Shown: positions 10,234 to 59,500 of the stretch, in pieces
Layout: each line of letters begins with the position of its first letter
Position numbering within the stretch: the stretch's first letter is position 1
DNA from: Buxus sempervirens
Taxonomy: Eukaryota > Streptophyta > Magnoliopsida > Buxales > Buxaceae
Direction of reading: 5' to 3'
Length of the DNA stretch: 64,000 bases
Assembly: GCA_947561395.2 (NCBI GenBank)
Contig: OX387194.1
Location: 18,338,048-18,402,047 of the forward strand
Notes under the pieces: generated by a model
Told to the model about the DNA's origin: nothing
The model's input: the letters and a program-made list of their open reading frames with translations, nothing else
Database searches by the model: none
Made by a program: the position numbers and the translations under genes

Positions 10234-10350
10234 AGTCAAATCATATCATAAAACAAAAAAATAAATAAATAAATGAATAAATTCAATCAGATAAAATTGT
10301 GTAATCAATTTGTGTAATATTGCACTAATGCCTGCGAATTGTCCCATCAG

Positions 10351-27178: not shown

Positions 27179-28922
27179 GTTTCCGGTTCCTACTGCAACC
27201 ATTGCTCCCCGACGTTCTCAGAGACTGAAATCTGTCACTATGAATCCTATTGAAGAACAATCTACTGTGTCTGCTGAAGCCTTTGCTCAACTGCAAGAGC
27301 AAGTGGCAGGGATGACAAAACTACTGGAGAATTTGCTGGCCAACCAAGCCACTCAGGCTCAGATGCAGGCGTAGTAGGCGCAAGCTCAGGTTCACCAGGC
27401 TTCATCATCCCACAATGCACCACCAGCTCAACCCCAGACTGACCTTCCACCACCAGTTCAACCTATTCCACCTCAACCTGAACTCTACCAGCCAACCCCC
27501 GAACCTATCTTGATCCGGGAGGAGGAATCTGAATGTGAGAGAGAGAAGGAGAAAGAAAAGGAAAGACTGAGGGTAGAAGTGGAAAGAAAATTTTTGGACA
27601 AGTTGGAGTCCATTCAAGAGGAGCTGAAAGAAGTAAGGGGGATCAACACGTTGGGTGGTACCAACTTTAAGGATCTCTGCATGTACCCCGACGCGTGCCT
27701 ACCGGCCAAATTTAAGTGCCCAGACTTCGAGAAATATGACGGCACCGGATGCCCAATGAGCCATCTGAAGCTCTACTGTGGGGCGTTGTGCCAATTTGGC
27801 CGGGATGATGGCATCCTGATCCAGCTATTCCAGAGAAGCCTAACTGGGGCAGCCTTGAGGTGGTTCGCAACTGTGGACCACGGCAGAATCAGAAGGTGGA
27901 AGGACCTAGCTGATGCTTTCCTTGCTCAGTACCGTTTCAATGTTGACATCGTGCCAGACAGGTACGATATGATGAAGATGAGCAAGGGAAGAGAAGAGAC
28001 AGTCAGACAATATGCCAAAAGGTGGAGGGAAGTCGCCTCTCAAGTCAGGCCTCCTATGATGGAGCCAGAGATGGTTACCACCTTCATTGGCACACTAGGG
28101 CAGCCATTTTACAATCACTTGGTGGGTCAGATTACCACCAGTTTTGCTACTCTAGTGCAAGTTGCGGACCGGATTGAAGATGGAATCAGATCCGGGCAAA
28201 TTTATGACCACACTGCCTCGGCTCGTCAGCAAGAGCCCACTGCTGATCCTTCTACCCCGAAGCAAAAAAATGGGGCAAGAAGGAACGGAGGAAAGAAGGA
28301 AGGGGAAGTAAATATGGTACAACCCCAACCACCCAAAAAACCACTCCAAGTCAACATTTCTGCACCTCCATCCAACCTAGTGTAGCTACAATCGACCTAT
28401 CAAAACCCTCTCAATATTAATGTTCCTCAAGCAGCAATGCCCAACCAAAAAAGAGTATTCTCAAAAGAGGAGAGAGACGCTTGGATGGCGTCCAGAAGGA
28501 GCAGGGTCCTTTCCCCTTTTCCTGTGACTCCATCCCAGCTATTGCCATCTTTGTTAAACGCGGGGTATGTCACCCTGAAAGAACCAAATCCGAATGCTTC
28601 AAAGGGAAAGAATTTCGATCCCTCCACCACCTGTGAATACCATATGGGTGCACCAGGACACCTTACAGACAGGTGTTGGCCATTAAAACATGCCATCCAG
28701 GATTTGATCAATCAGGGAACCCTGTTGTTTAACACGACTGCATCCTCTCCCGCCAGGACTGACATTGGTCAGAATCCTCTGCCCCAGCATAATGGGGCTG
28801 GTCCTTCCAATTTTGTAGGGACCATCTCTTCTAGACCTAGGACGTTTGATCCTTCGCAGTTAATTGCGCCAATAGGGACGTCCGTTAGGGTCTATTTTGA
28901 CCAGGAAGAGATAGGGGAATAA
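27179..28922 (+). pseudogene. gag: gag of element B, several nonsense codons
   Basis: Capsid/nucleocapsid polyprotein of the Retand-like element. The first ATG in frame is 27240; the frame is open back to the predicted acceptor at 27179. Capsid about 27690-28190 (YDGTGCPMSHLK, QYAKRWRE, FIGTLGQPFYNHL). Knuckle CEYHMGAPGHLTDRC near 28630, the same C-x2-H-x5-H-x4-C type as A and C. In-frame stops: two adjacent TAG codons at 27372-27377 in a glutamine-rich tract, TAG at 28383-28385, and TAA at 28920-28922 near the gag/protease boundary. All parts share one frame, so a gag-pro fusion is likely ancestral. Confidence 0.9.
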
Positions 28923-31300
28923 ATCAATGTCATTTCTGGAAATAATGGAAATGGCAAGACTGCAGAGGACATTAATGCCTCTTTAAACCTGGCCGTTTCT
29001 CTCATGGCCCAGCTTAATGTAACCAAACCCCCTCTCATTATTAATTGCAACCAGGCTGTTGCTTCCCCACCTACTCCATCGTCCAAACCATCTTTGGTCA
29101 TTAATTATGACCCCACCACCGCATCAATTACATCTGTTTCCTCTCAGACCTTAAAATCCTCTCAAGCCAAGGAGCCCAGGCAATCTTCGCCTCTGGTTAT
29201 TGAGGTGCCTTCTTCTAGCCCCATCCCCATATCAACTCCTGCACCAAGGTCTCATCTCCAACCCTTGGTATTTAACGTTCCTAAACCCTCCTATTCAGAA
29301 ACTGTTGTACCTTGGAACTACAGCGAGGGTTATACGACCACTATCCCAGTGGCCAGGAACCAGGGTCAGGAGGAGGTAAACCTCATGACAAGATCGGGGA
29401 GATGTGTGGAAGGAAAAGAGCAAGAAAAGAAAGAGGCTGAGCAAGTCCAGAAAGGAAAGGCCAAGATTGGGGAGGACACCCCCCAGGTCGACAGTAAGGA
29501 GGCAGAAGACCTCCTAAAAATACTGAAAAAGAGTGAATTCAATATTGTCGACCAATTAACCAAGGTCCCTGCCCAGATATCAATACTGGGATTATTGCTT
29601 AATTCAGAAAAGCATAGGGACTCATTAATGAAAGTACTCCAGAGCGCCCACATGCCCAAAACAATTGAGCCAGACCATCTCGGCACGATGATCGGCCAGA
29701 TTTAATCTCACAATGTAATAAGCTTTTCAGAAAGCGAGATAAGCCCTGGCGGATGTTATCACATGGACCCTTTGCACATCACTGTGCTTTGTAAGGGTAG
29801 CATGATAGCCAGGGTCCTAATTGACAATGGGTCAGCCTTAAACGTCTGTCCCCTGGTAACATTTGTGAGGCTTGGTCTGGACCAATCCAAGATAAAACAG
29901 AACGGGAGGATAGTGAGAGCTTTTGATAGCTCCAAAACACACTCTCTGGGAGAGATTGAATTACCGATTACCATCGGACCAAATATCTTTAATATCACAT
30001 TCGAAGTGATAGATATTCCGGCTGCCTTCAATTTACTTCTGGGAAGGCCGTGGATCCACTCAGCTAGGGCTATACCATCCACCCTCCATCAAAGAGTGAA
30101 ATATATAAGGGGTCAGAGGGTGATAACGGTCCTAGCCGAGAGTCTAGTCCCTCCCGTCATACCACCTGACGTACCTTTCATTAATGTGGAATTAACGGCA
30201 GACAAAATTGCGTTTCATTCTTTTCAGTTTGAAACAGTCAACTTCATACCTGGGGGGTGTCTAAAAAAGAACGAGAAGTTGACATGCACCAACAAGATGG
30301 TGGAGAAGGTTCTGAAAGATTGCAATTTCCACCCAGGGAAGGGGTTGGGAATTAATCTACAAGGAAGAGTGGAGCCCATAGAGGCACAGAGGCTAGTCCC
30401 ACGAGCGGGACTAGAGTTGAAAATAAGAAGATGGAAGAGGGGATCACAAGAAGAAAATGGTAAGGAAAAAAATCAAGGAAAACTCCCTCATTTAAGGGAA
30501 ACCTTTCCGAAGCCCTCTCATACCATTCAATTGTCTCCTCCTTCAGATTCCTCCAGACCTCCATATTTTAACGATAATCCTTTTAGAAAACCTTTTACCT
30601 CAACCCTTCAACCTTTTATCCCCCTCTCACCCACTTTGGCGCCTAAAGCCATGGATGAGCCTGAGCCACTGCCACAAGAGCAGCAGGATTTCACGGAAGA
30701 GATAGGGGCATTCTTTGCAATGGAAGAGGATGAAGGGATAAAGAAAGCAGAAAAAAAGGTTCCTTTTATTAACTGGGCCTCAATCAAGATCCCAGATAAG
30801 TTCATTTCTGAACTCAGCCCCGAAGCAGAAAAGGGCAGTTTTTTTTATCCGGTAATGATGGTATCGGATCAAGAGCTTGAGGAGGAACAGGTTTGCACTA
30901 TACCACCTGTTCCAGAGGGCTTTGTACTAAAAAATTGGGAAGAGATCCCTTTGACACTTGAGGCTGCATATGGTTGGCAAACAGCTGCGGCCTCCAAAAA
31001 AAAAACTCCATTAGTGGATTGCCCTTTTCCTGAAGGTTTTAATGAACCTTCATCTTCAGGAAAAGCCTCCTTAGAAGGTTCTCAAAAAACCCAAAAAGAT
31101 TTGTCAATTTTTTCTAGAAAATCTAAAGCTTTCAAAATGGTCCAGACTGCTTATGAGCCATATATACAGACTGAATTAGAGCAAGTTGAATATGACTTCG
31201 ACCTCGAGCTCGACTTCGACCTAATGGGGATCGAAGAGGAGATCGAGGCCGAAGACGATGACCTTCCAAGAGAAATATCATATCAATTGGAACGTCACGA
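28923..31300 (+). pseudogene. pro: Protease region of element B with G-patch
   Basis: Same frame as gag, one TAA at 29703-29705. Aspartic protease about 29760-30060 with LIDNGSALNVCP and NLLLGRPWIH. A G-patch follows at about 30297-30385 (MVEKVLKDCNFHPGKGLG, then NLQGRVEPI), clearer than in A. A long acidic linker leads to RT. A one-base shift near 31301-31305, judged against A's CACGAAAAGGGTCT, moves the reading to the RT frame. Confidence 0.88.
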
Positions 31301-34300
31301 AAGGGTATTCAACCTAATATTGAAGAAACCATTTCCATAAACCTGGGAACCGAAGAGGACCCAAAAATTGTAAAGATTGGTGCATGCTTGTCTGATATGC
31401 AACAAAAGGAAATGTCCCAATTCTTGGCCGATTACAAGGACGTGTTCGCATGGTCTTATCGAGATATGCCGGGATTGGATACAGACATGGTTGTACACAG
31501 GCTGCCGATCCTGCCAGGAGTAAATCCTATTAAGCAGAAATTGAGAAGGTTGAAACCAGAGTGGACTTTAAAAGTCAAGGATGAAGTGGTGAAACAGTTT
31601 CAAGCCGGATTTTTGGCAGTGTCCACATACCCTGATTGGCTAGCTAATATAGTCCCGGTTCCAAAGAAGGATGGAAAAGTCAGGATGTGTGTGGATTACA
31701 GAGACTTGAACAAGGCGAGCCCGAAGGATGATTTTCCTTTGCCACACATCGACATCTTGGTTGATAATATGGCAGTGCACAGCTTGTTCTCTTTTATGGA
31801 CGGCTTTTCCGGATATAACCAAATCAAAATGGCAAAGGAAGATCAAGAGAAAACCGCTTTTATCATTCCTTGGGGAACCTTTCACTACACAGTCATGCCT
31901 TTCGGATTGAAGAATGCTGGGGCAACATATCAGCGAGCCATGACAGCCCTTTTCCATGATATGATCCACAAAGAAATGGAGGTCTATGTGGATGATATGA
32001 TCGCCAAATCATGTGAAGAGGAAGACCACTTGATCAATCTAAAGAGAGTATTTGACCGTCTAAGGAAGTACAGCTTGAGGCTTAATCCAGCAAAGTGTGT
32101 TTTTGGAGCCACATCAGGGAAATTATTGGGATTCATTGTAAGTAGAAGAGGGATTGAGATAGACCCGTCTAAAGCAAAGGCAATCATTGAGATGCCGTCT
32201 CCTAAGACGGAAAAAGAAGTTAGGGGCTTTCTGGGAAGAATTCAGTATATTAGCCAGTTCATAGCACAGCTCACTACTATTTGCGAACTGATCTTTAAGC
32301 TTCTAAGGAAGAACAACCCAACTATATGGAATGAGGATTGCCAACAAGCATTCGACAAAATAAAGGATTATCTGTTAAATCCTCCTGTTCTAGTACCGCC
32401 AACTCCAGGAAAACCATTGATTCTGTATCTATCAGTTTTAGAAACATCAATGGGATGTGTATTGGGGCAGCATGATGAAACAGGCAGAAAAGAAAAGGCT
32501 ATCTACTATTTGAGCAAGAAGTTCACAGATTATGAGACGAGATATTCGCCTTTGGAAACGACTTGTTGTGCTTTGGTCTGGGCAACTCAGAGGCTTAGGC
32601 ACTATTTCTTAAGCTATTCAACTTTGTTGATTTCCAGGATGGATCCGTTAAAATATCTGTTTGAAAAGCCGGCTTTAACTGGTAGAACAGCGAAGTGGCA
32701 GCTTTTGCTTTCAAAATTCGACTTGACATATGTCACGTAGAAAGAAATTAAAGGTCAGGCAATTGCTGATCATCTAGCTGAGCATCCATTACCAGATTAT
32801 TAGCCTCTTAAGACGAATTTCCCTGATGAGGCTATCTTATTTGCTGAAGAGGAAGAAAGTGAAGACTCCTGGCAGATGTTCTTCGATGGGGCTGCAAATA
32901 TGAATGGAAATGGGATCGGCGCAGTATTAGTAAAGCCAGATGGTTCACATATCCCAATCGCAGTGAAATTGAGGTTCCAGTGCACGAACAACATAGCAGA
33001 GTATGAGGCATGTATAATCGGGTTACAGGCTGCTCTAGATCATAATGTTCAAGAACTTGACGTATATGGGGATTCGAGTCTTATCATCTTCCAAACAACT
33101 GGGGAATGGAAAACCAAAGATCATAAATTGATCCCATATCACCAATATTTGGAAGAAATAAGTACCAAATTTACTCGAATTTCTTTTAGCTATATGCCAA
33201 GGGCTAAGAATCAGTTTGCGGATGCCTTGGCGACGTTGGCCTCAATGGTTAGTATTCCAGAAGGGGTAGACATACAACCACTTGAAATTGAAGTCAGAGA
33301 CGAGCCAGCTTATTGCCTTGTTTTAGAAGGAGCGCAAGGATCAGAAATACCATGGTTCCAAGATATCAAGAATTTCTTAGACAATCAAAATTTTCCAGAA
33401 AGCGCTAGTCCCACTGAAAAAAGAACAATACAGAGGTTAGCAGGACAGTTCCTTATAAGTGGTGGGCAGTTATACAAGAGATCTTACAGTAGTGTTCTAA
33501 TCAGATGCGTCACCAAGGTTGAAGCAGAAAGGTTGATTGAAACAGTGCACGGGGGAGTCTGTGGGCCGCACATGAATGGACACATGCTCGCAAGGAAAAT
33601 ATTGCGATTGGGATATTATTGGTCTACAATGGAGCACGATTGTTGCCTACATGTTAAGAGATGCCATTTGTGCCAAATATACGCTGACAATAAGCATGCA
33701 CCACCAAGTGAGCTGCACAGCATGACCTCTCCCTGGCCTTTCTCTATGTGGGGTATTGATGTCATTGGGATGATTTCTCCTAAAGCGTCAAATGGACACC
33801 GGTTCATTCTAGTGGCAATCGATTATTTCACAAAGTGGGTTGAAGCTGCTTCATATGCAAATATTACAGGAAACCACGTTCTTAAATTTCTGAAGCACAA
33901 CATAATTTGCCGCTATGGGTTGCCAAAAGCCATAGTTTCAGACAATGCTTCAAATATTAAGAACAAGGATATGAAGAAGATGTGTGAGCAGTTTCAGATA
34001 ACTCATCACAAGTCAGCCCCATACAGGCCAAAGATGAATGGAGCAATAGAAGCGGCAAATAAGAACATAAAGAAAATAATCCAGAAGATGGTAGTGAGCT
34101 ATAGAGATTGGCACGAGATGTTACCATTTGCTCTCCATGCTTACAGAACCTCGATCCGAACTTCTACTGGGGCAACGCCGTATTCCTTGGTTTATGGAAC
34201 GGAGGCAGTCTTACCTGTTGAAATAGAAATCCCTTCATTGAGAGTGCTTATGGAAACAGAGCTTGAAGAGGCTGAATGGGTTCAGTCTAGATATGAGCAA

Positions 34301-34600
34301 CTCAATTTGATAGAAGAAAAGCGGTTGAATGCGCTTTGCCACGGTCAACTGTATCAGAGGAGAATGGCCAGAGCCTACAACAAGAAAGTGAAGCCCAGAG
34401 CTTTCCAAGTGGGTAATTTAGTCTTAAAGAAGATATTGCCATTTTTGGAGGACCCTCGCGGAAAGTTTAAGCCAAATTGGGAGGGACCTTATGTAGTGAA
34501 GAAGGTCTTGTCAGGAGGCGCTCTTATCTTCACAGAAATGGATGGGACAGATTTTCCTGAGCCAATCAACTCCGATGCGGTCAAACAATATTTCCCTTGA
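31301..34600 (+). pseudogene. pol: RT, RNase H, archaeal RNase H and integrase of element B, two nonsense codons
   Basis: RT about 31560-32110 with FPLPHIDILVDN, FMDGFSGYNQI and YVDDMIAKS. RNase H about 32410-32790. Archaeal-type RNase H about 32869-33255 (MFFDGAANMNG, NIAEYEACIIGL, VYGDSSLI, FADALATLASM). Integrase zinc ligands about 33545-33680 (HGGVCGPHMNGH, CHLCQ), catalytic core (WGIDVIG, SDNASN, NGAIEAANK), and a C-terminal domain ending at TGA 34598-34600. TAG at 32738-32740 and 32801-32803 interrupt the RNase H connection where A has lysine-adjacent or CAG codons. Apart from those two stops the frame is open for 3.2 kb, so decay is mild. Confidence 0.94.
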
Positions 34601-35656
34601 AGGAATATCACAAAGAAATGATCCGAGGCCATTTTTCCGTTATCCCTCACAAATTTTAAATATCCCTAGATTAAACCAAGTTGAGCCTGTTCGTGTTTTA
34701 AAAAACCCAAACTAGAGCTTACAGTCGCGACTGGGGCAAGGTTAATAGGAGAAAAAAAACACAAAAAGGAAAATAGTAAAGAAAGGCCAAATACAAAGAA
34801 AAGAAAAAAAGGCCAATATTAGGAATGGGGGGTCGCATCCATTATGGCTGTAAGCCCAGTTGTCCCATTTTCAAGATGTCAAAATTTTGAGCCTATAATA
34901 ACCTTCTTTCATAAACTCAACCCAGCCTTCATTTCGTCCTATTGGTCAAGTCCTCGGTGATCTGGGTGTACTCCTTCAAGCTCGCGGTGTTGAAAGGGCG
35001 ATGACGGAATAAATAAGCCGGTCCTAGTGAAAACCGTAACAGGCACTAGGGGCAATATTGGCAGAAAGAAGGCAAAAGAAAAGGATAAAAGAAAAGAAAG
35101 AAACAAGAAAAAGGTCACCAACCGCACTTGGGATACAGATTGAACCAAACCGCCCTTTTTCCACGGTTTTCGCAGAAGGGCTATGCAACCGCATATTGAA
35201 GACGGTTTTGGCTAAACCGTTCTGAATGCACGGTTTTGGGCGGCATAATTGAATTGAGCAAATTTTCTGCATAGGACTGAACCAGTAGGCTATGACATAT
35301 CCCTTGAAAGTAGGAAGGAAACTTGGGGATGAGTCTAAAGGTTCCAAGGGGGACGAAATGGCTTCCTCCTCATTAACTTAAATACCCTTTTTGCTCAACT
35401 TACTTCAATTTATCCAACTATATGGGATTAAAGCATTATGGACTAATTTACAATAAAGACACACAAAAATTAAAATTATATTTTGGCCGATGATGAGAAA
35501 TCAGTGACTTTTCATTAAAACTGTCAGTTTTTTATAAGCATATGAGAGTTCTGAGGCCAATAGTATAAAAACCTATTTTGTATTCTCTATCTTTCCACTA
35601 GTGGAGTTTCTCTTTGTACAGAAGTGTAAAAAAGGAAAAAAATACAATAAAAGTGG
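34601..35656 (+). other. Element B post-integrase noncoding region
   Basis: Contains blocks shared with A and C: GAGGCC...GTTGAGCC at 34624-34690, and TTCTTTCATAAACTCAACCC...TTTCGTCCTAT at 34888-34970, followed by a CCTAGTG...CACTAGG hairpin at about 35024-35051. Palindromes AACCG...CGGTT are at 35148-35169, 35187-35207 and 35215-35235. The AT-rich remainder to 35656 would be the 3' flank of the antisense gene. Confidence 0.7.
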
Positions 35657-37309
35657 CTAATCTCTATCCCCTAGCCTTTCCTCAAGCTCTCTGATCCGAG
35701 CCGCCTGAACCGCCACAAGCCTTTCAGCCCCTTCTGCATCTGGGTCACTGAGGAATGAGATGACGTCATCGGAGAGGGTCTGCCTAGTCCTCATATCTCT
35801 GAGCCTGGCCATGGTCTCATCATGCCTGCGCCATGCGGCTCTCACCTCGAAGCGACGGGCCTGTATCTGCTCTGATAACCGTCTCTCCAGATCTTCCTTC
35901 TCCAATCTCAAAGTTCAGGCCTCCTCCACCCATATGAGCTGAAGCCGCCTATGAGAAGCCCGCTCGGTCTCCAAGAGGTCCTCATAAGTAGGACACGGGA
36001 TAGCAGGAGGATCCACCGGTACAGAAGCACAGCTCTGCACCTGCTCTCTAATCCAGAAGATATAGTCCTTCTCATGCAATTTGGAGAAGACAGGACCTCT
36101 CAAGAAGCAAGCTTGCGACCAATCCTTCAACAGGCGGAAGCATAGGCCCATGGTAGCCGGTGTGAGCGGACCTATGAATTATTCATACCCCTGAGGTACC
36201 AAGATCCCCTGCACCTCCTCTCCAAACTGCCGGATGACCCTCGAAGGCAAGTAGAGCAAGGCAGACCGCAAGCCCATGAGCACAGCGAAATTCTGATCCG
36301 AGAAGCTGATTACTGTCTCGACAGAAGGCTGATAAGCACCAGGCCATCTCACTTGGTCGTCTTTAAGCGTTCCCAAAAAAGCAAACCATCCCTGTTTGCC
36401 ACCGTGGATGTTGGGACATCCTCTGTTGCTCATCAAGACAGGAATGTTTAATCTGGGAAAGAAGCGGCGGGTAATCTCTTCAACTTGACTCAGGTGGTCA
36501 AGTAGCCAGAGCTGCAAATAAAAGGGAAGCATTTCTATCTTAGAAAATCTCAATTTTGCAATAAAAGTTATAATTCAAGAAAGAGGTTCAGATTTTACCT
36601 GAAGTATAGGGGCGCAGGCGAGGAAACTTTTCTGCTTCCGGTGATAGCAGTCAGTCAAGGCCTGGTATATTTCAGCCAGGATCATAGGGGCGAGCCTTTC
36701 AAGCTCCCTAACTTGGCAAATGACTGAAATGAGGGATAAATCAACCTCGCTATCACCTCGGGGGAATAAAAGTTGGTTGACCACTATCAAGGTCAAAGCA
36801 TTGAACCAAGCCGATTGGTTTGGGCTATTCAACAGCTTTTCAGTCAAAAATGACTTTGATAAGGTCAATAAGGCGTAAGCTTCCCCTAACTCTCTCTTGC
36901 TAATTCCTAAAAAAATGGAGGCTTCCTTTTTAAAGCTTGGCTTGAGAGGTGGGTTGACAACTTTCTTGAAGAACCTAAGGTTGAGGATGGTTTCAACCTC
37001 CTCGACTGTAGGGGTCATCTCTTTTTCCCCAAACCGAAAGAGGTTCAATTGGGGTTCCCAATGCCCAATCAATGCCTCTATAATTTCCCATTTTAAGGGG
37101 ACCTTTGGGATTGAAAGAAGGTGGCCTAGATTGGCAGAATCCCAATCTATCTCATCCTGTGGGGTCATTGAATCAACCCACCTCTCATAATAAGTATCTA
37201 CAATGGCATACCTAGTCAAGTTGGGAGGTTTGGACCTAATTTGTGGCCTAGGTGCTAATGTTTCAGGTACAGAAGATGAAAATGGCACAGAAGCTGAAGC
37301 GGAAGCCAT
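35657..37309 (-). pseudogene. Antisense accessory gene 2 of element B, homologue of Ogre ORF1
   Basis: Minus-strand gene downstream of integrase. Predicted exons 37309-36599 (237 codons) and 36511-35657 (285 codons including the stop) are joined by an 87-base intron, CAG|GTAAAA to TTTGCAG|, phase 0. The product aligns with element A's ORF1: MAS start, KWEIIEALIGHWEPQLNLFRFG, MTPTVEEVETIL, AWFNALTLIVVNQLLFP, then RVIRQFGEEVQGILVP, and a C-terminal coiled coil rich in Arg and Glu (35660-35910). Exon 2 has two in-frame stops, TAA at 36179-36181 and TGA at 35915-35917, with the homologous reading continuing after each. Function unknown; plant-mobile-domain-like fold suspected. Confidence 0.78.
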
Positions 37310-37787
37310 TAATGGGCAAAAGTGGATTAAAGGCAGCTAGGAGAGAGAAAATCGCCAAAAGGGGGTTTTTGACCTAAGCAATACGTCAAAATGATGTCCT
37401 GCCCGCAATTCGCGGTTTTAAAATAACCTAAGGGCAAAAACCGCATACACAGAACAGTTATGCTTGAACCGCACTCAATGTGCGGTTGCATTCCCGCAAA
37501 GTTTAAAAACCGCGGGATAAGTACGGTTCGTGTATAACCGCCCTGTATGTACGGTTTTTGCACAAAAACAGTTTTTCTTCTTTCTTTTAAAAAGTCAGGT
37601 TCCCCAAAAAACCTGTTACCTGCATAACAGTTGCAACAGGACAAACATACACAAATAAGCAAAAAATTAAAAGAAAAGAAACAAAAATGAATAAATTTTC
37701 TCTTTTTTCATATAAACTACCAATGGATACATCATGTTTTATATACAGATATCAAATGAATCCTAATCTAAACCTATCTCCTACAGG
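37310..37787. other. Spacer between the two antisense genes
   Basis: Noncoding. Carries 21-base palindromes at 37439-37459 (imperfect), 37467-37487, 37508-37528 and 37536-37556. On the minus strand it is upstream of antisense gene 2, a possible promoter region. Confidence 0.65.
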
Positions 37788-40586
37788 TCAATCCGCCTCG
37801 CCTCTACCTCGCCGTCGCTGACGGATGAAGAAATGATCGGAGAAGCGCTGGCTAGCCGGAGAAGACGGCTCAGCAGGAGTCGAAAGACTAGCAGGAGGCT
37901 CTGGGTCTGCAGCAGGTGCAGGATCGGTAGAAGATGCAGGAACAGGAACTGGATCGTCCCGAGACAGGTCCATGAAGCAAGAGACTGAAGTGTTCGTCGC
38001 CAGAGGGACCAGCTCCAGAATCTGGGGATCCTCGGCAGGAGGAGTGGAATCTGTGGGACCCGCTGCGTCACGCACCTCTGCCACCTCGGGCTCAGCTACA
38101 TCTGGCATCCCCTCCTCTCTCACGGGCTCGGCCGCCTCAGGAACTGCAGGAGCCTCTAAGTCACCCTCCTCTGTCTCAGGAGCAGTCTCTGGCTCAGATG
38201 CAGGAGCGGTCTCAAATACAGGTGCAGCCTCTGGTATCTCAGCTGACTTAGGAACTGCTGCAGCAGAGGTAGCCTCGGCCGCCACCTCGCTCTCTCTCTC
38301 TGGGATCTTTGTAGCTCCTAAGGAAAAGGATAGAGTGCGAGAGCTGGATGGAGAAGCCGCCACATCCTCCTGAAAGGCAAAGACAGACTGATCAGAAGCA
38401 GAAAAGATAAAGGAAAAAATACAGAAACTGAAAAAGACAGACCTGAGCTCCTGAAGGCCCCGCCTGGCCCTGAGCACTGGCCAACTGGGCCCGCAAGTTG
38501 GCAATAAGAGCGGCCTGCCCAGTGATGATGACGTCGCTCTCAACAATGGCGGCATCTCTCTCAGCCAGCTGGCGCTCCAGATCCGCATATCTAGCCCGGA
38601 CCTCCTCTAGCTGTGCCTCCTGAAATGAGATAAGGAGAGAAAAGATATCAGTAAATAAGAAAGGAAGACTAGAAGACTGCACAAGGAAAGGAGGTTCATA
38701 CCGTGGTGTCGTATAGGCGGATCACCACCCCTCCTATCTCAGTAACTCCACCTCGAACGGGCATGGGCTGCATAAGACAACCCACTGAAACTTGCCCGAA
38801 CCAGGTATCATAGTCACCATCGACTAAAAGGGTATCTCCTGCCTCCCACTCGCCAAAGTGAGCAGGGTCGAATGGACCAGGAGGGGTGAAGGGTGCTGTA
38901 GCTGGAGGAGCCACTGGGATCCGGAGCTCGCCAGTATGCTGGAAGAAGAAACGCTCGCCGAGGTACCATATGCTACCCAATTGCCCGATGAAGAATGGGT
39001 ACCTCTGGCGCCGCTGATCCAAGGCAAAAGCGTCATCCACAAAGGGCTGAAAAGCCAACTCATCGTGCAGGCCGTCGAGACGGGGAACAAAGAGCTGAGG
39101 ATAAACAGAGTAGAATGTCAAATTCTGGAAAAAGGGATAAAAGAAAAGAAAGAAAGAAAAGAAGAAAGTGCTTACCTCTCTCCTGAAGGTCCTGTCCAGA
39201 TGAGCTTTGGCCGACCTAGGGCGACTCTTCTCTGAGTCACACCTAATCTGATTCCACCGGCGGGCCAAGGGAAACGTCCCCTCAGGCAGTGTGGAGGTAG
39301 GCCGAAAATGGGCCACGTAGACCCGAGCAAAGAACTAAAAGAAAAAAAAGAGAGAGAGATAAGCAAAGGCAAAAATGAGAAGAAAAAGAAAAAAAGAAAA
39401 GAGAAAAAAAAAAGAGAGAAAAGGAAAAAGCAAGAAGAAAAAAGAAAGAAAGTCATTTATACCTGTAAAAAGGGCAAGAAAAACCTGCAACCCACTCCGG
39501 CCCCTCTGGGAGAGGATAGGCCGGAAACCACTCGTCGTAGGCCCGCTAACAAGGTGCCATAGACAAGTTGGCCCCAGGCGTACTCCCTCGCTCGGTGCAG
39601 ATCCCGAAGAAGACTCAGAAAATGGGGACTGATTGAGGTAGTATCCTCCAAGCAGAAGCAGGATCCCATCATCAGAAGGAAAAGAAATCTGAAGGCCAAG
39701 GGGAAACTGGGATGCTCCGCTGCTAAGGTGCTATACCCCCTCGAAAGAAATGTCTCCCTCAACCATGTCCGGGAAATGCGGGTGATCCTGCTCCTATCCC
39801 ACGCCCCCACGGGCATCTCATCATATCCCAAGAGTTCGGCGATCTCCAAATCTGCCGGCCAATCCATCTCAGTGATGACATCTCCAGTCATCCTGATCCC
39901 AGTAATAAGAGCGAAGTCGGAGGGGCGAATACCAATCTCCACGTCAGGCAGATGAAAGCTTAAGGTCTCTGGGGAGAATCGCTCCATCAGGGCCAAGATC
40001 AAAGGCCGATCCTGACGAACGCCGGTGATGGTGATGAAAGGGCCAAATCCGAAACGGCCCATCTCTCGACGCAAAGGAGTCGAACAGGCCCCTACTACAT
40101 CAGCAAAAAGGGCCCAGCTCCCGCGGAAATGAGAAGAGGGATAAGCAAGAGGGATGTCCGCCCTGACGCCCGCCGAAGGATGCGTTGTCAAACTATGAAG
40201 GAGAGAGGTGTCCCGGATCTGATCCGCTATCTCCGCAGGAATGGCCACATGAGTCACCCGGGCTCCTGCCCTACCTCTACGACGAGCTCCCCTACGCTCT
40301 CGAACCTCGGCAACGGGCTAGAAAAGCAAATGAGAGGGTTTCAGATTGAATGTAGCAAAAGGGGAGATTTGTTTTTGAAAAGAAGAGAGAATACCTCGGG
40401 TGCCGACTCTAACGAATCCTCGGACGCTCCCGAGTCTGAATCTGAAAGATCCAGACTACTGGGAGAAGAAGGATCAGGGTCTGGCTCGGTCCTAGAAGAA
40501 GAGGCCACATCGGCCGGGTCCCTCCGAACCCTCGAAGATGAAGGCTCATCTGCAGGACCCCGAGAAGCGCGACGTGTACGGGCCAT
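37788..40586 (-). CDS. Antisense gene 1 of element B: six-exon plant mobile domain protein, intact
   Basis: Predicted exons on the minus strand: 40586-40395, 40317-39463, 39334-39176, 39124-38702, 38619-38443 and 38369-37788, giving 795 residues. All five introns (51-128 bases) have GT..AG ends, all are phase 0, and no exon contains a stop. Exon 1 is Ser/Arg/acid-rich. Exon 2 carries the plant-mobile-domain signature (FGPFITITGVRQDRPLI, MERFSPETLSFHLPDVEIGI, FALITGIRMTG), and exons 3-4 its C-terminal half. Exon 5 is a heptad coiled coil (EAQLEEVRARYADLERQLAE) and exon 6 an Ala/Pro/Glu-rich tail ending in a basic cluster. In Arabidopsis, PMD proteins (MAIN, MAIL1) act in silencing and genome stability. 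The role here is unknown. A TATA-like AT run at about 40785-40815 lies about 200 bases upstream of the ATG. Confidence 0.8.
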
Positions 40587-42564
40587 CTATAGGATCAGAG
40601 TGCAGGGAGAAATTCATTATCTTTTGTAAAGCCAATAGGTCTTATTCATGATTTCTTCAGTAGGGCTATGGATTAATCAAGTTGTTTGCAGGAAAAAGAA
40701 AATCGGAAGAAGCACTTCAAAAAGTGCCCCACCAAACCAGGATTTGATTTCTTCCATTCGTTATTAATTTCTTTATTATCTCTGTTATATATAAGAATTA
40801 TATACAAGAAACAAAATTTCCTATATGTCTTTCTTATAAATAAAAAAAAAAAAATAGAGATTTTTGAAGCAAGCTATTCGGAATTCTCAATTCATGTTTA
40901 GAATTCTGATAAGTTTAATGATTGACTAAAATTCTAAATTGTTGAATATGTTTTAATTCTCAGGTCCACAGAATTCAGGATCACTCAGTTCCTTACAAGC
41001 ATTTGGGTGTTCAGCTCAAGTTATTGTTTCTGGCTCAATCCCATTTATGCTAATAGGGTATCGGCATCAATCGGATCCAAAGCCAATCAATGCCAGCATA
41101 CAAGTAAATCAGGGGGAGACATCTGTGCCTCTATCCCAAACAGCAGAGATCATGCATAAACAAGTGGAATGTCAACCAAGAGAAGTCAGATGTATAGTAG
41201 CATGAACAGATACAGAAATTGAAAATATTGATAGCATTGGCATTCAAAAAGATCACAAATTGTCAGAAATCCATATTTTCGGCAGGCATAGCATTTGGGG
41301 ATTTTCTTCAGTCAAGACATTCAAGCATGTCGGAAAAGCAGAAAATTCCAGTCTAAGGGTCCAGGCTAGCAGAAATAGCATACCAAGTAGGCAAAAACAT
41401 GCATTACAGGGTGAGCAAGCCGAGTGTTATACTGCCGCAGAAAAGAAATCCTCATGCCAATGTGGAGCAAATATGTAAAGGTTCAAAATTGGATAAACAA
41501 AAGTCATGATTGATTCCAAAAAAGAACTTGGGTAAAAATTGAAGCAATGCAAGCCATGGTCAAGTACAGATCGACACAGGCAATGGGCACATACAAGATT
41601 GGGGATTTTTTTTTATCCCATTGACCACAAGGTGACTAAGGCATTAAATCAATGGCAAATTTCGTGCATAAAGGCATTCAATCATGGAGTCAGAGCACAA
41701 AACTTTCGAACAAGTTGTTTGCAAATTCGGACAAGGATTCGGCCACCTACCTGTATCAGCCGAAAAATAAGTCTGGCAAGGAAAACAGGAGCTTGACCTC
41801 ACCAGGAACTTGGAGGAGGGTCGATTGAAGTGGCAGTCGAGCAAGCTCAGAACAGAGGACAGTATGACGGGTCCGCCGGAAGCTACAGTCACCACAAGGA
41901 TCGTTGGTCACTCGAAGAAGCTAAATCACCGGGAAAAAACGGAAATCACCGGAGAGAGCAATGCCACCAGAAGAAGATGAAGTCACCGGAGGATGTGATT
42001 TCGCCAGAGAAGGAAGGATGAAGACCGGAGAGAACGCACGGTCGCCAGAGAGAACGCAAGAGTTCCGGAAGTCAAGGGTTTCGCGAGCGAAATGAAGCCA
42101 GGCGCGGTCGCGGTCGCGTTTATATTCAACCTACAAAACCGCACATACAGAACGGTTAGTATTAATATTGTTGAAAACCGCACATACAGCACGGTTGAAA
42201 TTGAAAATGCTAAAAACCGCTCGTTCAGTACGGTTGGCACCCAAAAATGAATTTTCAAAACTTTTTCCAATCTCTTTCAAAAGATCTATGTCCAGGATAG
42301 TCATGAATGGCAAGAAGCATCACCCTATCAACTTTTGCTTTAAAAATTTGCTTAAATCTCACTTCATAGCCACGAGTGCTCTGTGAGACGGGAGAAGAGG
42401 ATTTGCCCCTTAAGGTTAGGGACTTTTCATCGGATCCTCTAAACAAATTTTTTTTCAAAAATCAAGTCGGAATTCTTGCAGCTCATGATCGAATGGACAT
42501 GATCTTGGGAAGCGCAATTTGCAGATCTTTTTGCTCTCCGCTGTTAATTGTTTCCAATTCCAGC
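40587..42564. other. Element B region between antisense gene 1 and polypurine tract
   Basis: No supported gene. On the minus strand this is the upstream region of antisense gene 1. TCACCGG and GCCGG words repeat loosely at 41870-42060. Three 21-base palindromes lie at 42137-42157, 42176-42196 and 42215-42235. From 42486 it aligns with the pre-polypurine blocks of A and C. Confidence 0.65.
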
Positions 42565-42578: not shown

Positions 42579-42690
42579 TGTAGACACCCCAAATTGCACT
42601 TCCATAAGAGAGAACCTTCAAAAGAACTTTAAAAGTCTTATTTGAGCCTTGACATATGTCAAACACTCAAGAACTCTCAAAATTGGTGCC

Positions 42691-42957
42691 AACCGTACTG
42701 AGTATACGGTTTTTATAGTTTTGGTCTCAACTGCCCTGTATGTACGGTTGCAACCGCATACACAGCACGGTTTATATTCATGCTTATCGCGCGGGTTGCC
42801 ATGTGGCTTCCGGAAGCTTCGGCCGTTGGGACACATCGACAGCACTCATGACGAGCGTAACTGAATTGAACCGCTCTGTATATGCGGTTTGGTTAAGTTT
42901 GTATATGAACCACACTTTGAGTGACGGTTGTGTTGAAACCGTACTGTGTATGCGGTT
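42691..42957 (+). repeat. Six 21-bp palindromes upstream of the B promoter
   Basis: AACCG-N11-CGGTT or near versions at 42691-42711, 42729-42749, 42752-42772, 42869-42889, 42908-42929 and 42937-42957. The centre reads CTG(T/A)RTRT in one orientation, and some copies are inverted. Confidence 0.88.
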
Positions 42958-43158
42958 TTGGCTGTTTCGGGGATTTGTGAAATGGTTCGATCTCTGAGCC
43001 TTATTTACGCATATTACCTCTCTCTTGGGGACTTGAACTCCATATTTCACCCTCCGAAACTTGCTGAATTACTCCAATTCAAGCCTTGGAGGAGAATTGG
43101 AATAATCTAGAAGGCCTTTTTGGCCTACCCTTGGGACTCTTCTACCCTTGGCTTGGCC

Positions 43159-43166
43159 TATAAATA
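43159..43166 (+). promoter_or_regulatory. Element B TATA box
   Basis: GCCTATAAATAGAGG is a classic plant TATA context. The start would fall near 43185-43192, almost at the ATG of the LTR exon. Element D has the same box near 48143. Confidence 0.75.
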
Positions 43167-43186
43167 GAGGGGTCCTCCTCTTGCAA

Positions 43187-43272
43187 ATGGCTGACAATTT
43201 GAAGCTTAGAAGCTCTGCAAGAAGAAGGAGAAGCTCTGCTGGATTGTCTACTCAAGTGTTCAAGCTACCAAG
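43187..43272 (+). CDS. Predicted LTR-encoded first exon of B gag
   Basis: ATG at 43187, 28 codons plus two bases, rich in Arg and Ser, ending at CCAAG|GTAAAG. In the 5' LTR equivalent (outside the window) this donor can join the acceptor at 27178/27179. The split codon becomes AGG and the reading continues in the gag frame with no stop up to the first ATG of gag and beyond. The excised intron would contain the rest of the LTR, the primer site and the whole leader, about 5 kb without A. Seen directly: the open exon, both splice motifs and matching phase. Inferred: actual splicing. Confidence 0.55.
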
Positions 43273-44986
43273 GTAAAGTCCTTTACATTTTCAGCATTCT
43301 CTTTACATTACACTCCCAACTTCTACCTTTCTGTAGTGTAAAGCCAATCTCTGTTGATTTGTAGCCCCAAACCCCTTCTAAAGTACCTGGGAATCCTCTC
43401 TAGCCGTAAAACGTGAAGAGAGAGCCTTGGGAAAAGGAAGGTGGAATGGATCCTCTAGGCTTAGAACCCACCAATGATGAAAAGCATGCTATATGGTTAT
43501 TTTGATCCTTTGAATGCTTATCTGATTTATTTTGTATTTGGAGAAGATGTAGGAATCCATGCTCTCAATAGCAAGGGATTCAAATCTTCTCTTAGTTAGG
43601 TATTTTTCACATTATCACACACTTTTCACTGTTTTTGCAAGAATAGGCTAGATCCAGGATCTTCCATGCAATATGGAAAATCTGAGATCATTGGCCTTAA
43701 AGTGAATCTTAGAACTTCATGAGAGGTTTTTTGTTGATTTTTAAGGTTTTGGTCGAATCCACATGCACACATACACTGGTTTCCATATTTTATCCAAAAA
43801 ATCTTCAAAACAGGGCAGATCTGTGGCCTGTCTTGGAATGCTTATAACTTCATCCTCCGGATGAATTTTTGAGTGATTCCAAAGACATGTGATAGATGGG
43901 TATGCCTATATTATATCTGGAAAATTTCGTCCACTTTCATGTAGCCAATTTTTGACACCATCTGTTCAAAGTTTGTAAGTCAGTTCAGCCCAGATTGCTG
44001 AACTTGCCGCTTTGATGGTGCACCGTTTGCTCAGTTTTAATCCGTTTTGTGTGATTCTAATTTCTGAATTTTCCTTGAGAAGTCTATTTTCATTTCCAAT
44101 TGGTTTCAGCAGATTTTGATCTATTTTGTGCCTTGGGTGCTCAGTTGACTCAGAGGTGCTCGCTAGCATAGTCCAGAGCTAATCTGTGGTCTTCTGGGCC
44201 TGTTCCAGTAAGCACACAGGTCACATCTGGTTAGAGTTTGGTGTGAGGTTTTTTTTCTTTGGAAAGATGACACCACATACTTCCCCCATACCAATTTTCA
44301 TGGATTTTTATTGAGCCAAACTCCACGAATAGAATTTTGAAAATGCCTACTTAACACTTTTTCCAAGTTATAACAGCAAATTTTAGATGTGGATTTCTCT
44401 CTCATTTTAAGTCGGATGGAGCTGAATTTTTTACTGTATACTCTACTATGTACCAGTTTTCAAATGGCATTGGTTTCAATGGATTTGAATTTAAATTGAG
44501 TGAGTTATGGTTAATCGAAGCTTTCCAGCTCTTTTGATCTAATTTCTCCAGATTTGCCTTAACTTGATTCTCTTCATTTTTACTTGGATTTCCCTTCACT
44601 CATGAAGTTTTAGAGGTGATGGATCCACAAAGAGAGTCTAAGCTCATTAGACTTCTCATGTGGGATGGTCACACACATTGTGCTTGTTATAAGCACCCTT
44701 TTTTGTTTATTTTTATTAGCAAACAATCTCTAGCATAAGCAAGCATGTGGCAACCGTCTTAGGCGGATGAGTGGGGGTGCCTAACACCTTCCCCCGCTCA
44801 TAAATAATTCCCCTTACCCAATCTCTGGATTTTTCCATATATTAGAGCTACTTTGGCTCTATTTGGCTCTTATGAATATTTTGGTGTCCATTCACACCTT
44901 AAGATGGATGGTGGCGACTCTTACATTTATCGATCCCCGCGTGACGATATCGGAGGTCATCCTAGATGACAAATCCATGTCTCACA

Positions 44987-47726: not shown

Positions 47727-48462
47727 TGCAGACACCCCAAATTGCACTACAAAATGAGAAAATAATTGAAAATATTAATTGGGATTTGAAAAAGGCCAAT
47801 AAAGTGTAAAATTTGGTCAAACTGGTCATGCTCGTATTTTATTTACGGTGTGGTCATGCCCGTAGTTGATATACAGGCACAGCGTGCCCGTATTAATATT
47901 ACAGGCAAGGCGCGACCGTAATATATATACGGGTAAGGGGTTTTTTGGGCGAATTTATGCTTTTTGATTTTTAAGCCTTATCTGCACCCAAATATCTCTC
48001 TTGGATAAGCGAATTCTCTTATTTATCTGTTTGAACTATCTCATTTATCCTTGTTGGCCATGGATTGGCATCATCTCTATTTTCAACTCTATCTTGAGGA
48101 TCATGGTATATCTCTTTGGACCAACCATGCCCCCAGGCTTGCCTATAAATAGAGGGCAGATCCTCAAGCAAATGGCCATGAAAATTTGAAGACTCAAGAG
48201 CTCCAAGAGAAGAGAGGAATCCCTGCTGCTCTGCTTGCTCAATCCAGGTGAGTCCCTTTTCCCTTTTATTTACTTTTATTTTTTGTTTTTAATTCTAGAA
48301 GTAATAGGATCTTCTCCATTGTTGTAGAATAAGGCCTTCTTTTATTTTGTATTCCTAAACTTGTCTCTAAGTACCTTAAGAGTCTTTTTAGCCGTAAAAC
48401 GTGAAGAGAGAGCTAGGGGAAAGGGGAACAGGTGGATCCCTAGAATAGAACCTCATATTCTG
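47727..48462 (+). repeat. Solo LTR D, left part
   Basis: Starts TGCAGACACCCCAAATTGCA, close to B's LTR start. Target duplicate ATACG at 47722-47726 matches 63906-63910. Palindromes at 47830-47850, 47858-47878, 47886-47906 and 47914-47934 have GCCCG-type arms. TATA box GCCTATAAATAGAGG near 48142, donor-like CCAG|GTGAGT near 48250. Interrupted by element C after 48462. Confidence 0.88.
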
Positions 48463-51400
48463 TGTAAGCACCTCATTTTTGCGTCTCCCAAAATGAAATT
48501 TTAATTGAAAAGTCAAACTTGAGAAAGTCAAACTTGAGAAAAGTCAAACTTGAGAAAGTCAAAAAGTTGACTTTTTATCTGGTGCAAATCAGTTGCCATG
48601 CTTCCCACCATTGGAAAGAGGATTCCGATGCGATTCTAATGGAACAGAGTTTGCTCAAATCGGAGTCCAGATGAAGAAGTTATGGACTGGTCAAATCTGA
48701 GAAAAGCAGAAATTGATTTTCTGCTAAACCCCAGATCAGCTATTCCATTTGATATCAGCAGAAAGAGCATCTCGACACGATTCCAACGCAACTGAGTTTG
48801 CTGGAATCGGGGTCCCGGATAAGGAAATATGAGCAAAATCGGCTCCCGGACGCGGCCCGGCACTTCTGCTAAAAAACTTGAATTTGCTGCTAAACTGAAA
48901 TTCAGTGGATTGGGAATCTCGAGCTGATTCCAACGCCACTAAGTTTGCTAAAATCGGATATCAGATGAGTGAGTTGTGGGCAGTTGAAGTTTCTGAAAAA
49001 ACTGCACACGTGGCAAATAGTGAAGAAAGAGCAGCAAAATGAAAAGTTTTGAATTAAAAAAATAATATTTTTGCTATAAATCTAATCAAAGTATTTAAAA
49101 CAAAAGAAAAAGAAAAAAAATTAAAAGATGCATGTGCATCCAAAATTTAAAACAAAAAAACCCTAATATAATAATAATAAAAGTACATAAAGAAAAAAAA
49201 GAAAATAAAAAAACATGTGGTTGGACGAATTCTCCATGTGGAGAATTCGTCCAAGCAAACTTAGCCTCCAAGTTTACTTGGAGGCTAAGGAAAGAATGCA
49301 ATCATGAGTTTTGTTTAAAAAAGGGTATGAATGAAAAAGGGGTTGGCTTTTGGTGATAAAGTAGGGAAATATTTGCATTTTGGTCATTGCTTATAAAAAG
49401 AAAAAACCCTAGCAATTAGGGAGGTCGGCTGATTTTTGTTTGGGGTTCTCCCATCTCTCCCAAGCTCCTCCATTCTCTCCCCCATGCTCCTCCACCTCTC
49501 CTTGCTCCCTAGTCCCAAGTAGACCACCTAGAAACCTTATTTCTTCTTCTTGATCTTCTTCTCCTTCACTTAAGCCAAATAGGAAGGTGAAGGTGTTGCT
49601 TTTGGTGCGTGAAGGTGCTGCCCCAGCACTTCGGTTGGCTTCAAGAGGACCTCTACGCACAAGAAGAAGGGTCTTCCACCCCAAGGTATCATTCCTTGTT
49701 CCCTTTTACACTACATATGTGAAAATGGAGGCATTTCATGATGTTTCATAAGTATCGTTCCTCCCATGCTCTCAATCGGTTTCTTTGTTCTTTTTTGAAA
49801 TGTCTTATATGTGTTCTTGTTTTATTTTCATGGCTGTTGGGTGTGCTTTGCTTTAGTTTAGAAGGGAGCATGTTCCCTCTCGATTAATCATCTAATGTAC
49901 CCCCCGAGTAACCCCCCTCTTCCCTTCTTCAAGTGCTTCCTTTCTAAGATGAATGGGTGATGTATGTGGGTAGGATGATGAATGTAGCACCTGATGCATG
50001 CTAAGTCTATCCTCTGTTGGTTTATTCACATAAGGCCTAGTTGTTGTCGTACACAGGCACGGATTGATTATTGTCCAAAATATAGGTTTTGCCCTCTTTA
50101 GGATCATGTGAGTATCCCATCTTATTTGCTGTTTTGTATGTGTTAGTCATTGTTTCGGGTCATGAAAAACCAGCCCATTCGACCTTGTGCCGGCTTCGTA
50201 AGCATGCTTACTTGTTCATTCATTAGAAGCATATCTAGGTACCATACATGTGCTACTACTTAATATGATTTGCATGCATGGAAAACTTGCTTTTTTTCAA
50301 CTCTTAATGGCCTATCTTGTTCTTCAGTTTGGTTGTAACTTGAACATGTTTATGGGTGCTTCGTGTTGTTTTTTTATATAAAGTAATGGTGGGTTCTTAG
50401 AAGAAGGAAGGGAATCAAAATAGGGACACTTGAGTCCCTGTTTGTGTGTGGATTTGGTTTAGAGAGAGGAGGCAAACCCCTAACCTCCTCCCATCCTCTT
50501 AGTTTTCCCTAAAGAGAAGCTCATTCTTCTCTATTTTGGAACCATTGTGGGCCCACCCAGGGGCCCACACAATCACTGGAACTCCCCAAGAAGCCTAAAA
50601 AAACCCAACCCCAGTGGAAAAATCCAAAAAATAGGTTCTGTATGTTGATCCGGCAACTCAGGCCGGATCAACAGAGATTTATGTGTAGCCGGCATTAGAT
50701 GCCGGATACACTCAAATCAAGGTGTAGCCGGCTAAAGATGCCGGATACACAGAGACTTGTGTGTAACCGGCATCTCAGGCCGGCTACACTGCCAGAGTTC
50801 TTCCTTTGCTATTTTTGTGATTTTGTGCAATATTTTGAACTGTTTGATCAAATCCGGGCGAACCAGAAGGGTTTCCGGGTGACCCGGAAACCCAAAACGG
50901 GCCATGGACCGACCCGGTCCAAACTGATTCCAGGTGGGCCTTCCAACGGGGCCCACCAAGCCCGACCAACTCATTCATGCTTAAATAAGATAAATAAGAG
51001 ATTTGAGTGGGCCAGACCAATTGAGGCCCACCCAAGCCCTAATTGGGCCATGCATGATTAAAGTAGGATGTGGTTTGGCCGAGACCAAGGGTAGGGCCTA
51101 TCGGGCCCACCAAGCCCATTAACCAACCAAACTTAGGGTTTCAGAACCCTAACTCAGGAAGTCTTGGGCTTTCAAGCCCAAGCCCAGGTAAAGGGCCCCA
51201 AGCCCAAGGCCTGGCCCGTTTTGGCAAAGGTTAATCAAGAATAACTCAAAACACTTGGCAACCAGGGTGAGGCCCACTCAAGGGCCCACAAACAGTCCCG
51301 GCCTACTTGTGCATAGAAATCACTTAAATAATCAAACTGGAATTTAAATAAAATCAATTCACTTGAACCAAAGCCCAAAGGGCCTCTCAGGTTTAGACTG

Positions 51401-51856
51401 AGGCCCACCAAGGAGACACGTGGGCTCAACCGAGCCCACCAAGGAATCCGCGGGCCTTCCAACGGGGCCCGCCCTATGAGACTCACATCACTTTAATTAA
51501 AAAGATAAAATCAAGTGAAGGGACCCATACCACTTTGGCGGTCCCGCCAGACTTAACCGAATAGAATGCTGGATTAGGAATCGGGTGAGTGAGAGACCAA
51601 CTAAGTTGACTCAAACCAGGGAAACTTATGGGACCCGTCACTTGACGGGGTGGACTGGGGTGTCTACGGACTTCCCCAGACCGCAACCGAGCCCCTACTT
51701 AGAATCTCAAAGCCGCAGACCAAAAGCCTTAGTAGAAGAACTTAGGCACCCAGGTGTCTGCCTGCACCCCATCAGGCAGTGGCGACTCCAAACAAATCCC
51801 GAGGCACGCATCGTTTTGCGTGCGCTTCGTCGTGCGACCGAAATCGGGTGCGCACA
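48463..51856 (+). repeat. Element C 5' LTR
   Basis: 3394 bases, TGTAAGCACCTCATTTTTGC to GCGCACA. TATA-like CTTATAAAAAG near 49390, donor-like CCAAG|GTATCA after 49685, palindromes at 50644-50787, 25-base inverted repeat at 50869-50893, U5 stem CTGCCTG/CAGGCAG (51758-51779) and primer mimic (51780-51789). Confidence 0.95.
50644..50787 (+). repeat. Four palindromes of 25-28 bp in the C LTR
   Basis: TTGATCCGG...CCGGATCAA at about 50646-50671, then 25-base units GTAGCCGG/CCGGATAC at 50685-50709 and 50724-50748, and GTAACCGG/CCGGCTAC at 50763-50787. Unlike A, they lie downstream of the TATA box. Confidence 0.85.
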
Positions 51857-51859
51857 GCC

Positions 51860-51877
51860 TGGCGACTCTGCTGGGGA
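51860..51877 (+). promoter_or_regulatory. Element C primer binding site (tRNA-Arg type)
   Basis: TGGCGACTCTGCTGGGGA, three bases after the LTR end, identical to A. Confidence 0.85.
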
Positions 51878-54990: not shown

Positions 54991-55102
54991 GAATCAAATA
55001 ATGGAAAATCATCACAGTTAATCTGCAGAGACATGCATTATATTTCGTTATAATGTGCATTCTTTATACTGACGTGTCTATTGTCAACCCAAAGGTACCA
55101 AG

Positions 55103-59487: not shown

Positions 59488-59500
59488 AAAGAGGGACTGC
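59488..59500 (+). promoter_or_regulatory. Element C polypurine tract
   Basis: AAAGAGGGACTGC directly before the 3' LTR, close to A's AAAGAGGGGCAGC. Confidence 0.8.

Follow-up and report, generated by a model that had tools for sequence, protein, structure and literature searches.

The stretch of Buxus sempervirens DNA analyzed here (contig OX387194.1; 64,000 nt in all, hereafter the window, in whose own numbering all coordinates are given) contains three long terminal repeat (LTR) retrotransposons, which we call A, B, and C. Element B is most safely described as an Ogre-like element with two antisense, intron-bearing genes for plant mobile domain (PMD) proteins, one of which is open in this copy. 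The features on which this description draws, including a related open reading frame (ORF) in element A, are the following.

27240-34600, plus strand: gag-pol of B, in the order reverse transcriptase (RT), RNase H (RH), second RNase H (RVT_3), integrase (INT)
37309-35657, minus strand: gene 2, the second antisense PMD/DUF7745 gene; exons 37309-36599 and 36511-35657, premature stops at 36181 and 35917
36512-36598, minus strand: the single intron of gene 2, 87 nt, after ..PILQ
40586-37788, minus strand: gene 1, antisense PMD gene; six coding exons, 785 codons and a stop, no internal stops
40586-40395, 40317-39463, 39334-39176, 39094-38702, 38619-38443, 38369-37788, minus strand: exons of gene 1
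39335-39462, minus strand: intron 2 of gene 1, 128 nt
39095-39175, minus strand: intron 3 of gene 1, 81 nt; GT..AG, T-rich, open and in frame, read through by the blind search described below
38620-38701, minus strand: intron 4 of gene 1, 82 nt; the blind search picks 38746-38677 instead
42579-44986, plus strand: right LTR of B, TGTAGACACC..TCTCACA, preceded by a polypurine tract
7560-8882, plus strand: sense PMD/DUF7745 ORF of element A (sense ORF A), intronless, upstream of gag

The left LTR of B ends at 1138 and only those 1138 bp lie inside the window, with eight differences from the right LTR (0.70%; 99.3% identity). Without element A, which is nested in its leader, B would measure about 23.5 kb.

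The exon-intron structure of gene 1 looks real, in that openness, three-base periodicity, and GC contrast all go far beyond shuffled sequence. Its five introns (77, 128, 81, 82, and 73 nt) all have GT..AG ends and lie in phase 0, and the exons are 56-63% GC against 26-37% for the introns. The coding sequence (CDS) has no stop in frame 0 versus 24 and 41 in the other two frames, and not one of 2000 dinucleotide shuffles of it is open (mean 25.6 stops). Period-3 power reaches 11.9 in the CDS, whereas 300 shuffles do not exceed 2.9; no such signal appears in the introns or in exon 3 taken alone, whose value is reached by 91 of 300 shuffles. A blind search for spliced ORFs across 37600-40700 scored 2250, 2050, and 1850 at three intron penalties, versus shuffle maxima of 1884, 1263, and 1055 (60 shuffles each), and its traceback recovered exactly the start, the stop, and introns 1, 2, and 5 of gene 1 (three of the five introns). 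A first-pass annotation of this DNA had read six stop-free exons joined by five phase-0 GT..AG introns into about 795 codons; the exons and introns stand, and the length is corrected to 785.

The PMD assignment of that annotation is borne out by a PF10536 profile search, in which spliced gene 1 matches at residues 162-398 (E 5.9e-20; 72.2 bits, against a gathering cut-off of 34.9 bits for the whole-protein score). Exon 2 alone scores 58.8 bits, and the spliced protein, with exon 3 joined, gains 13.4 bits; because the match spans the exon 2/3 junction, continuing beyond residue 349, where exon 2 stops, intron 2 is supported. By the same cut-off the domain is present in sense ORF A (72.2 bits) and, only just, in exon 1 of gene 2 (35.2 bits), the exon 2 piece of gene 2 falling below it at 11.8 bits. 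PF04195, the family of the Retand TRP28 ORFs, was found neither in spliced gene 1 (searched to E 1, PF10536 only) nor in exons 2-6 singly (to E 10); with regard to VANC, the comparison was one of Pfam profiles, and it gave PMD and no further family for spliced gene 1 to E 1. Weaker leads are DUF1985, matched by exon 2 taken alone (E 0.08), and coiled-coil families, which exon 5 matches below their cut-offs (best E 0.0036). Protein searches with gene 1 (E up to 0.001) and with its residues 120-540 (E up to 1) gave no match among 8000 candidates scored each, in a set apparently poor in plant proteins; six pattern matches to exon 2 among viral contigs yielded no confirmed one, and a 592-residue part of gene 1 drew a single chance-level match from the PDB (E 0.36). 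In the predicted protein a patch of basic residues lies around positions 70-80, and an acidic, Ala/Pro/Glu-rich tail occupies 591-785 (39 D+E, 29 P, and 34 A in 195 residues). Dimerization of the product is speculative, since the heptad signal is modest in exon 5 (P 0.016) and missing from sense ORF A (P 0.40).

Gene 2 carries PF24924 (DUF7745) together with PF10536 and is 35% identical to sense ORF A over 296 aligned positions (E 3e-60). Nucleotide identity between the two at codon positions 1, 2, and 3 is 0.54, 0.73, and 0.31 over 182 codons of gene 2 exon 1, a pattern that does show past coding constraint on this family, as judged by codon position; the contrast is weaker in a 104-codon piece of exon 2 (0.42/0.51/0.36). 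The antisense gene is interrupted at ..CAPILQ/LWLLDHL.., whereas the sense ORF is continuous there (..CAPLLHIWLQDHL..). Two potato proteins (P0001 and P0002) that a search with sense ORF A returned among 7999 scored read ..LLLQLWAIEHF.. at this site at the protein level. In a three-sequence alignment, intron 2 of gene 1 (..CRFFLPFLQ/FFARV..) shares a column with the gene 2 intron, and a common intron site is probable, the weakness of the link between the two genes (see below) keeping it from being more than that. A sense intron is removed when spliced RNA is reverse transcribed, and an antisense intron is kept. The difference, seen between a single sense gene and two antisense ones, is as expected if antisense introns escape removal during retrotransposition, and so supports the earlier suggestion that the splice sites of gene 1 are invisible on the genomic RNA.

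A further feature of B is a 21-bp quasi-palindrome, AACCG-N11-CGGTT, of which all 16 exact copies in the window lie in noncoding parts of B (spacers and LTR), in five arrays. Sites of a different palindrome in A and C are given in the last line.

25489-25575: 5′ leader of B, three exact sites
35148-35235: spacer between pol and gene 2, three exact sites
37439-37556: spacer between the start of gene 2 and the end of gene 1, three exact sites and one with one mismatch
42137-42235: spacer between gene 1 and the 3′ LTR, three exact sites
42691-42957: right LTR of B, four exact sites and one with one mismatch, upstream of TATAAATA at 43159
2630-2871, 4782-4841, 21540-21781, 23691-23750, 50648-50785, 61695-61832: A/C palindrome sites

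No exact site overlaps coding sequence, which has a share of 0.56 (P 0.017 with the five arrays as units). The gap is fixed: among 19 other gap lengths, 18 gave no AACCG/CGGTT pair and a gap of 23 gave one. With up to one mismatch there are 20 sites, 18 in B and two in C. Within the 18 of B, the core reads CTG in one direction in 13 (CTGNNT in 12), with the arms alone kept in five; eight are oriented plus, five minus, and five cannot be oriented, and the three above gene 1 are alike. Spacing is mostly 28 or 38-39 bp, with 9 of 12 spacings at 0.62-0.71 of a helical turn. Elements A and C instead carry ATCCGG-N9-CCGGAT (21 bp, often 39 bp apart), which at up to two mismatches gives 24 sites at gap 9 versus 0-5 at each of 16 alternative gaps; the LTRs of A and C account for 22 of these 24. 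The B palindrome flanks gene 1 and recurs in the LTR, so the gene 1 region belongs to B, in keeping with the initial placement of the gene inside the element and antisense to gag-pol. RNA hairpins were considered as a reason for the palindromes and provisionally set aside, given arms of only 5 bp in 11 of the 16 exact sites, the conserved core, and the helical phasing.

Binding sites for host factors are known in plant LTRs. The AACCG of the AACCG/CGGTT half-sites resembles a MYB core, and the arrays could be host factor sites unrelated to the PMD proteins, a possibility that we regard as evenly balanced; the fixed 11-bp gap, the CTG core with its direction, present in 13 of the 18 sites, and the different arms in A and C look element-specific and speak against it.

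One array adjoins a candidate antisense promoter of gene 1.

42118-42124, minus strand: candidate TATA box of gene 1 (TATAAAC), 12 nt below the array 42235-42137
40587-41750, minus strand: candidate intron in the 5′ untranslated region of gene 1, with an AG/GTAGGT donor at 41750

On the minus strand TATAAAC is followed by a CT-rich, A-poor leader; the AGGTARG donor is the sole one in the 1544 nt scanned, and a pyrimidine tract and TATAG directly precede the ATG of gene 1. These features suggest that gene 1 has an internal antisense promoter and that its first exon is noncoding. We scanned 300 bp outward on each side of eight arrays (five in B, two in the left LTR of A, one in the left LTR of C) for TATAWA, which lies within 20 nt of two of the eight, at 12 nt in B and at 14 nt in the LTR of A, where TATAAA follows the array 2773-2871; the chance is about 1% per random point in B. 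The other six have no such close TATA: distances are 107 nt (leader), 155 and 184 nt (between gene 2 and gene 1, plus strand), 202 nt (LTR of B), and 268 nt (C, minus strand), and none was found within 300 bp of either side of the array between pol and gene 2 or of array 2 of A.

With respect to classification, Pfam places RT and RT_RNaseH in 31262-32737 of B, followed by RVT_3 ahead of rve in 32804-34597. RVT_3 we take to be aRH, so that B has the second RNase H between RH and INT that marks the Tat clade (its Ogre or Retand branch). The sequence CTGGCGACTCTGCTGGGGA follows the left LTR in A, B, and C alike and may be the primer binding site complementary to tRNA-Arg that is looked for in Ogre elements. 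Steinbauerova and colleagues are said to have described, in 2011, extra ORFs (eORFs) of Ogre elements with a plant mobile domain. The order RT, RNase H, aRH, INT is that given for angiosperm Ogre and Retand elements; 57% of the Ogre elements were found to have PMD, and 23% of the Retand elements Transposase_28 (PMC6317226). Because of these frequencies, Ogre-like seems a better label for B than the Grande/Retand type named in the first-pass annotation, a preference drawn from domain order and domain frequencies.

We consider the following account likely as a whole. B is an Ogre-like Tat element with two opposite-strand genes, both of the PMD family, between pol and the 3′ LTR. Transcription of this antisense unit would start at an internal promoter (TATA at 42124), immediately below one of the arrays; the introns of the unit would persist because the spliceosome is blind to them on the genomic RNA used for reverse transcription; and the gene 1 product, with its basic patch, PMD, possible coiled coil, and acidic tail, would be a nuclear accessory regulator of the element's own expression. 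Regulation of the element by this product is suggested by its anatomy and by analogy with Grande.

Several observations weigh against this interpretation. Introns 3 and 4 of gene 1 rest on the look of their splice sites and on composition, the reading frame requiring neither of them. Upstream ATGs and another TATA-like site are found closer to the start codon of gene 1 than the candidate promoter. Gene 1 and gene 2 give no significant BLAST match to each other and a weak hhalign one (probability 1.4, E 0.037), and in a five-row alignment with gene 1 exon 2 only, in which the conserved Cys aligns gap-free, the gene 1 intron falls three residues further on. Gene 2 is broken by its two premature stops, and the window shows only one copy of gene 1, with none added by the protein searches or the viral contigs. 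The persistence of antisense introns also has its counterpart in sense ones, as Ogre and EVADE retain partly spliced sense introns (PMC12786077, PMC6317226).

The state of the coding regions bears on a further alternative. The gag-pol of B has seven premature stops (27372, 27375, 28383, 28920, 29703, 32738, and 32801) and one frame change (31262-31340), the numbers that the first-pass annotation had given. About 0.9-1.1 new stops would be expected there since insertion from the LTR divergence, an expectation that rests on the visible half of the B LTR and on equal rates; the excess has a P of 4e-5 to 1e-4 (0.002-0.006 at the upper limit of divergence). With seven stops versus about one expected, most lesions are probably older than this insertion, and B probably moved in trans as a defective copy. 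In gene 1, 0.21-0.24 new stops would be expected over the same time (P about 0.8 for none). When the nine stops found in gag-pol and gene 2 are distributed by mutational opportunity, gene 1 is spared with a P of 0.20-0.23. Intactness of gene 1 as proof of selection is accordingly rejected, its openness being expected under neutrality, and the contrast with decaying neighbors, on which the claim of survival had been built, is not significant. The initial observation is confirmed and its interpretation partly supported, the proposed modulation of host silencing staying a hypothesis.

Gene 1 may be a neutral relic, functional in ancestral copies and here a passenger still open through too little time, an account that we place just short of an even chance. 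The stop expectations above favor it, as do the broken gene 2 and a gag-pol whose lesions probably predate insertion; it leaves unexplained the joint persistence of a full exon-intron structure, a PMD, and promoter-like arrays, and it is compatible with the regulatory interpretation at the level of the whole family. Recent capture of a host PMD gene by transduplication, with no role for the element, would account for five gene-like introns; we think it unlikely, given that B has two diverged PMD genes, that A has another one in sense, and that 57% of Ogre elements have the domain (PMC6317226), all of which would point to long residence. Least probable is an antisense transcript that acts as RNA, by pairing with genomic RNA or as a source of siRNA, and so tunes transposition with the protein incidental, as a review has proposed to be possible for antisense ORFs (PMC7264820), since coding periodicity, a conserved PMD, and stop-free exons require a protein explanation, at least formerly.

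The regulatory interpretation of B can be set beside several known systems. Ogre elements with PMD eORFs (Neumann et al. 2019, PMC6317226) share with B the Tat affiliation, the second RNase H between RH and INT, the very large size, and a PMD extra gene, and element A has its PMD ORF, like them, in sense upstream of gag; B differs in having two PMD genes that are antisense, after pol, and split by introns. The antisense ORFs of Grande (gene23), RIRE2, and Retand likewise lie between pol and the 3′ LTR (PMC7264820, PMC11963269), and the antisense gene of Grande is reported to have an upstream promoter of its own that drives its transcription, and a product that localizes to the nucleus (PMC7264820). 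The Retand proteins are mostly Transposase_28 (PMC11963269), whereas gene 1 is a PMD gene with five introns; the main text of that paper does not contain the words "intron" or "PMD". The Arabidopsis silencing proteins MAIN and MAIL1 also have a PMD (PMC5418596, PMC7156037), but are encoded by host genes of clade PMD-C, the PMDs of Gypsy elements being clades A1/A2 (PMC5418596).

The HBZ gene of HTLV-1 is spliced. It too is an antisense accessory gene of a retroelement with a nuclear regulator as product (mentioned in PMC11963269), and it differs in host, protein, and promoter position. In VANDAL DNA transposons, an accessory gene for an anti-silencing protein, VANC, is paired with a short family-specific motif arrayed in the transposon's own noncoding regions (PMC5735166, PMC10398659). 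The palindrome of B is similarly arrayed, with all 16 exact sites outside CDS and another palindrome in A and C, although its sites lack the single orientation of the VANC type (eight plus, five minus, five without orientation), the protein family is apparently different, and the element class is another one. On the strength of the arrays we make this comparison as a proposal: the antisense PMD proteins could be sequence-specific regulators, perhaps dimers, that bind the element's own 21-bp palindromes in LTR and spacers and drive or de-silence both strands, a counterpart of VANC encoded by intron-keeping antisense genes. We regard this as improbable, but if it were true, the silencing domain of hosts would be linked to selfish relatives; the arrays in any case offer a concrete DNA target to be tried with a retrotransposon PMD protein, whose domain is of unknown function and has host relatives with a part in silencing.

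That PMD is present in Ogre elements, and that Tat elements have antisense ORFs, is published; new here are gene 2 with its intron contrast, the 21-bp quasi-palindrome arrays of B, and the different palindrome in A and C. Among the literature matches listed, with subscription papers outside the scope, we recognized no intron- or PMD-bearing antisense genes in LTR elements and no palindrome arrays, which is not proof of their absence. One survey took eORFs of at least 250 codons by getorf (PMC6317226) and would see split genes in pieces (gene 1 exon 2 has 285 codons, and the gene 2 exons 237 and 284, the latter cut by stops here); another used ORF Finder, mainly at 600 bp or more (PMC11963269). 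Both sought uninterrupted frames, and intron-split antisense genes are therefore easily missed or shortened. If such genes are common, the accessory gene set of these elements is larger than recorded. The intron contrast between sense and antisense genes is a simple signature that can be tested.

The other two elements of the window are as follows.

2054-24795, plus strand: element A, with LTRs of 3.8 kb (26 substitutions in 3822 sites) and target site duplication (TSD) ATATG, nested in the leader of B
48463-62903: element C, with two LTR substitutions in 3394 sites and TSD TTCTG

An Rfam scan of the window at gathering scores gave no matches. The gag-pol of A (10318-18740) has in-frame stops at 11104, 11989, 15331, 16626, and 17586 and a frame change near 16131-16170, with an LTR difference of only 0.7%. 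Element C is very young by its LTRs; the one long ORF scanned in it, 55073-56728, is gag, no long pol-like ORF being listed, and C may be non-autonomous. Tandem repeats occupy 26218-26831 in the leader of B (unit about 77-78 bp) and, as another array, 53827-54803 in C. An 88-nt piece of the right LTR of B (43350-43437) is 72% alike to 48338-48425, just left of C, which is perhaps part of an older, related LTR.
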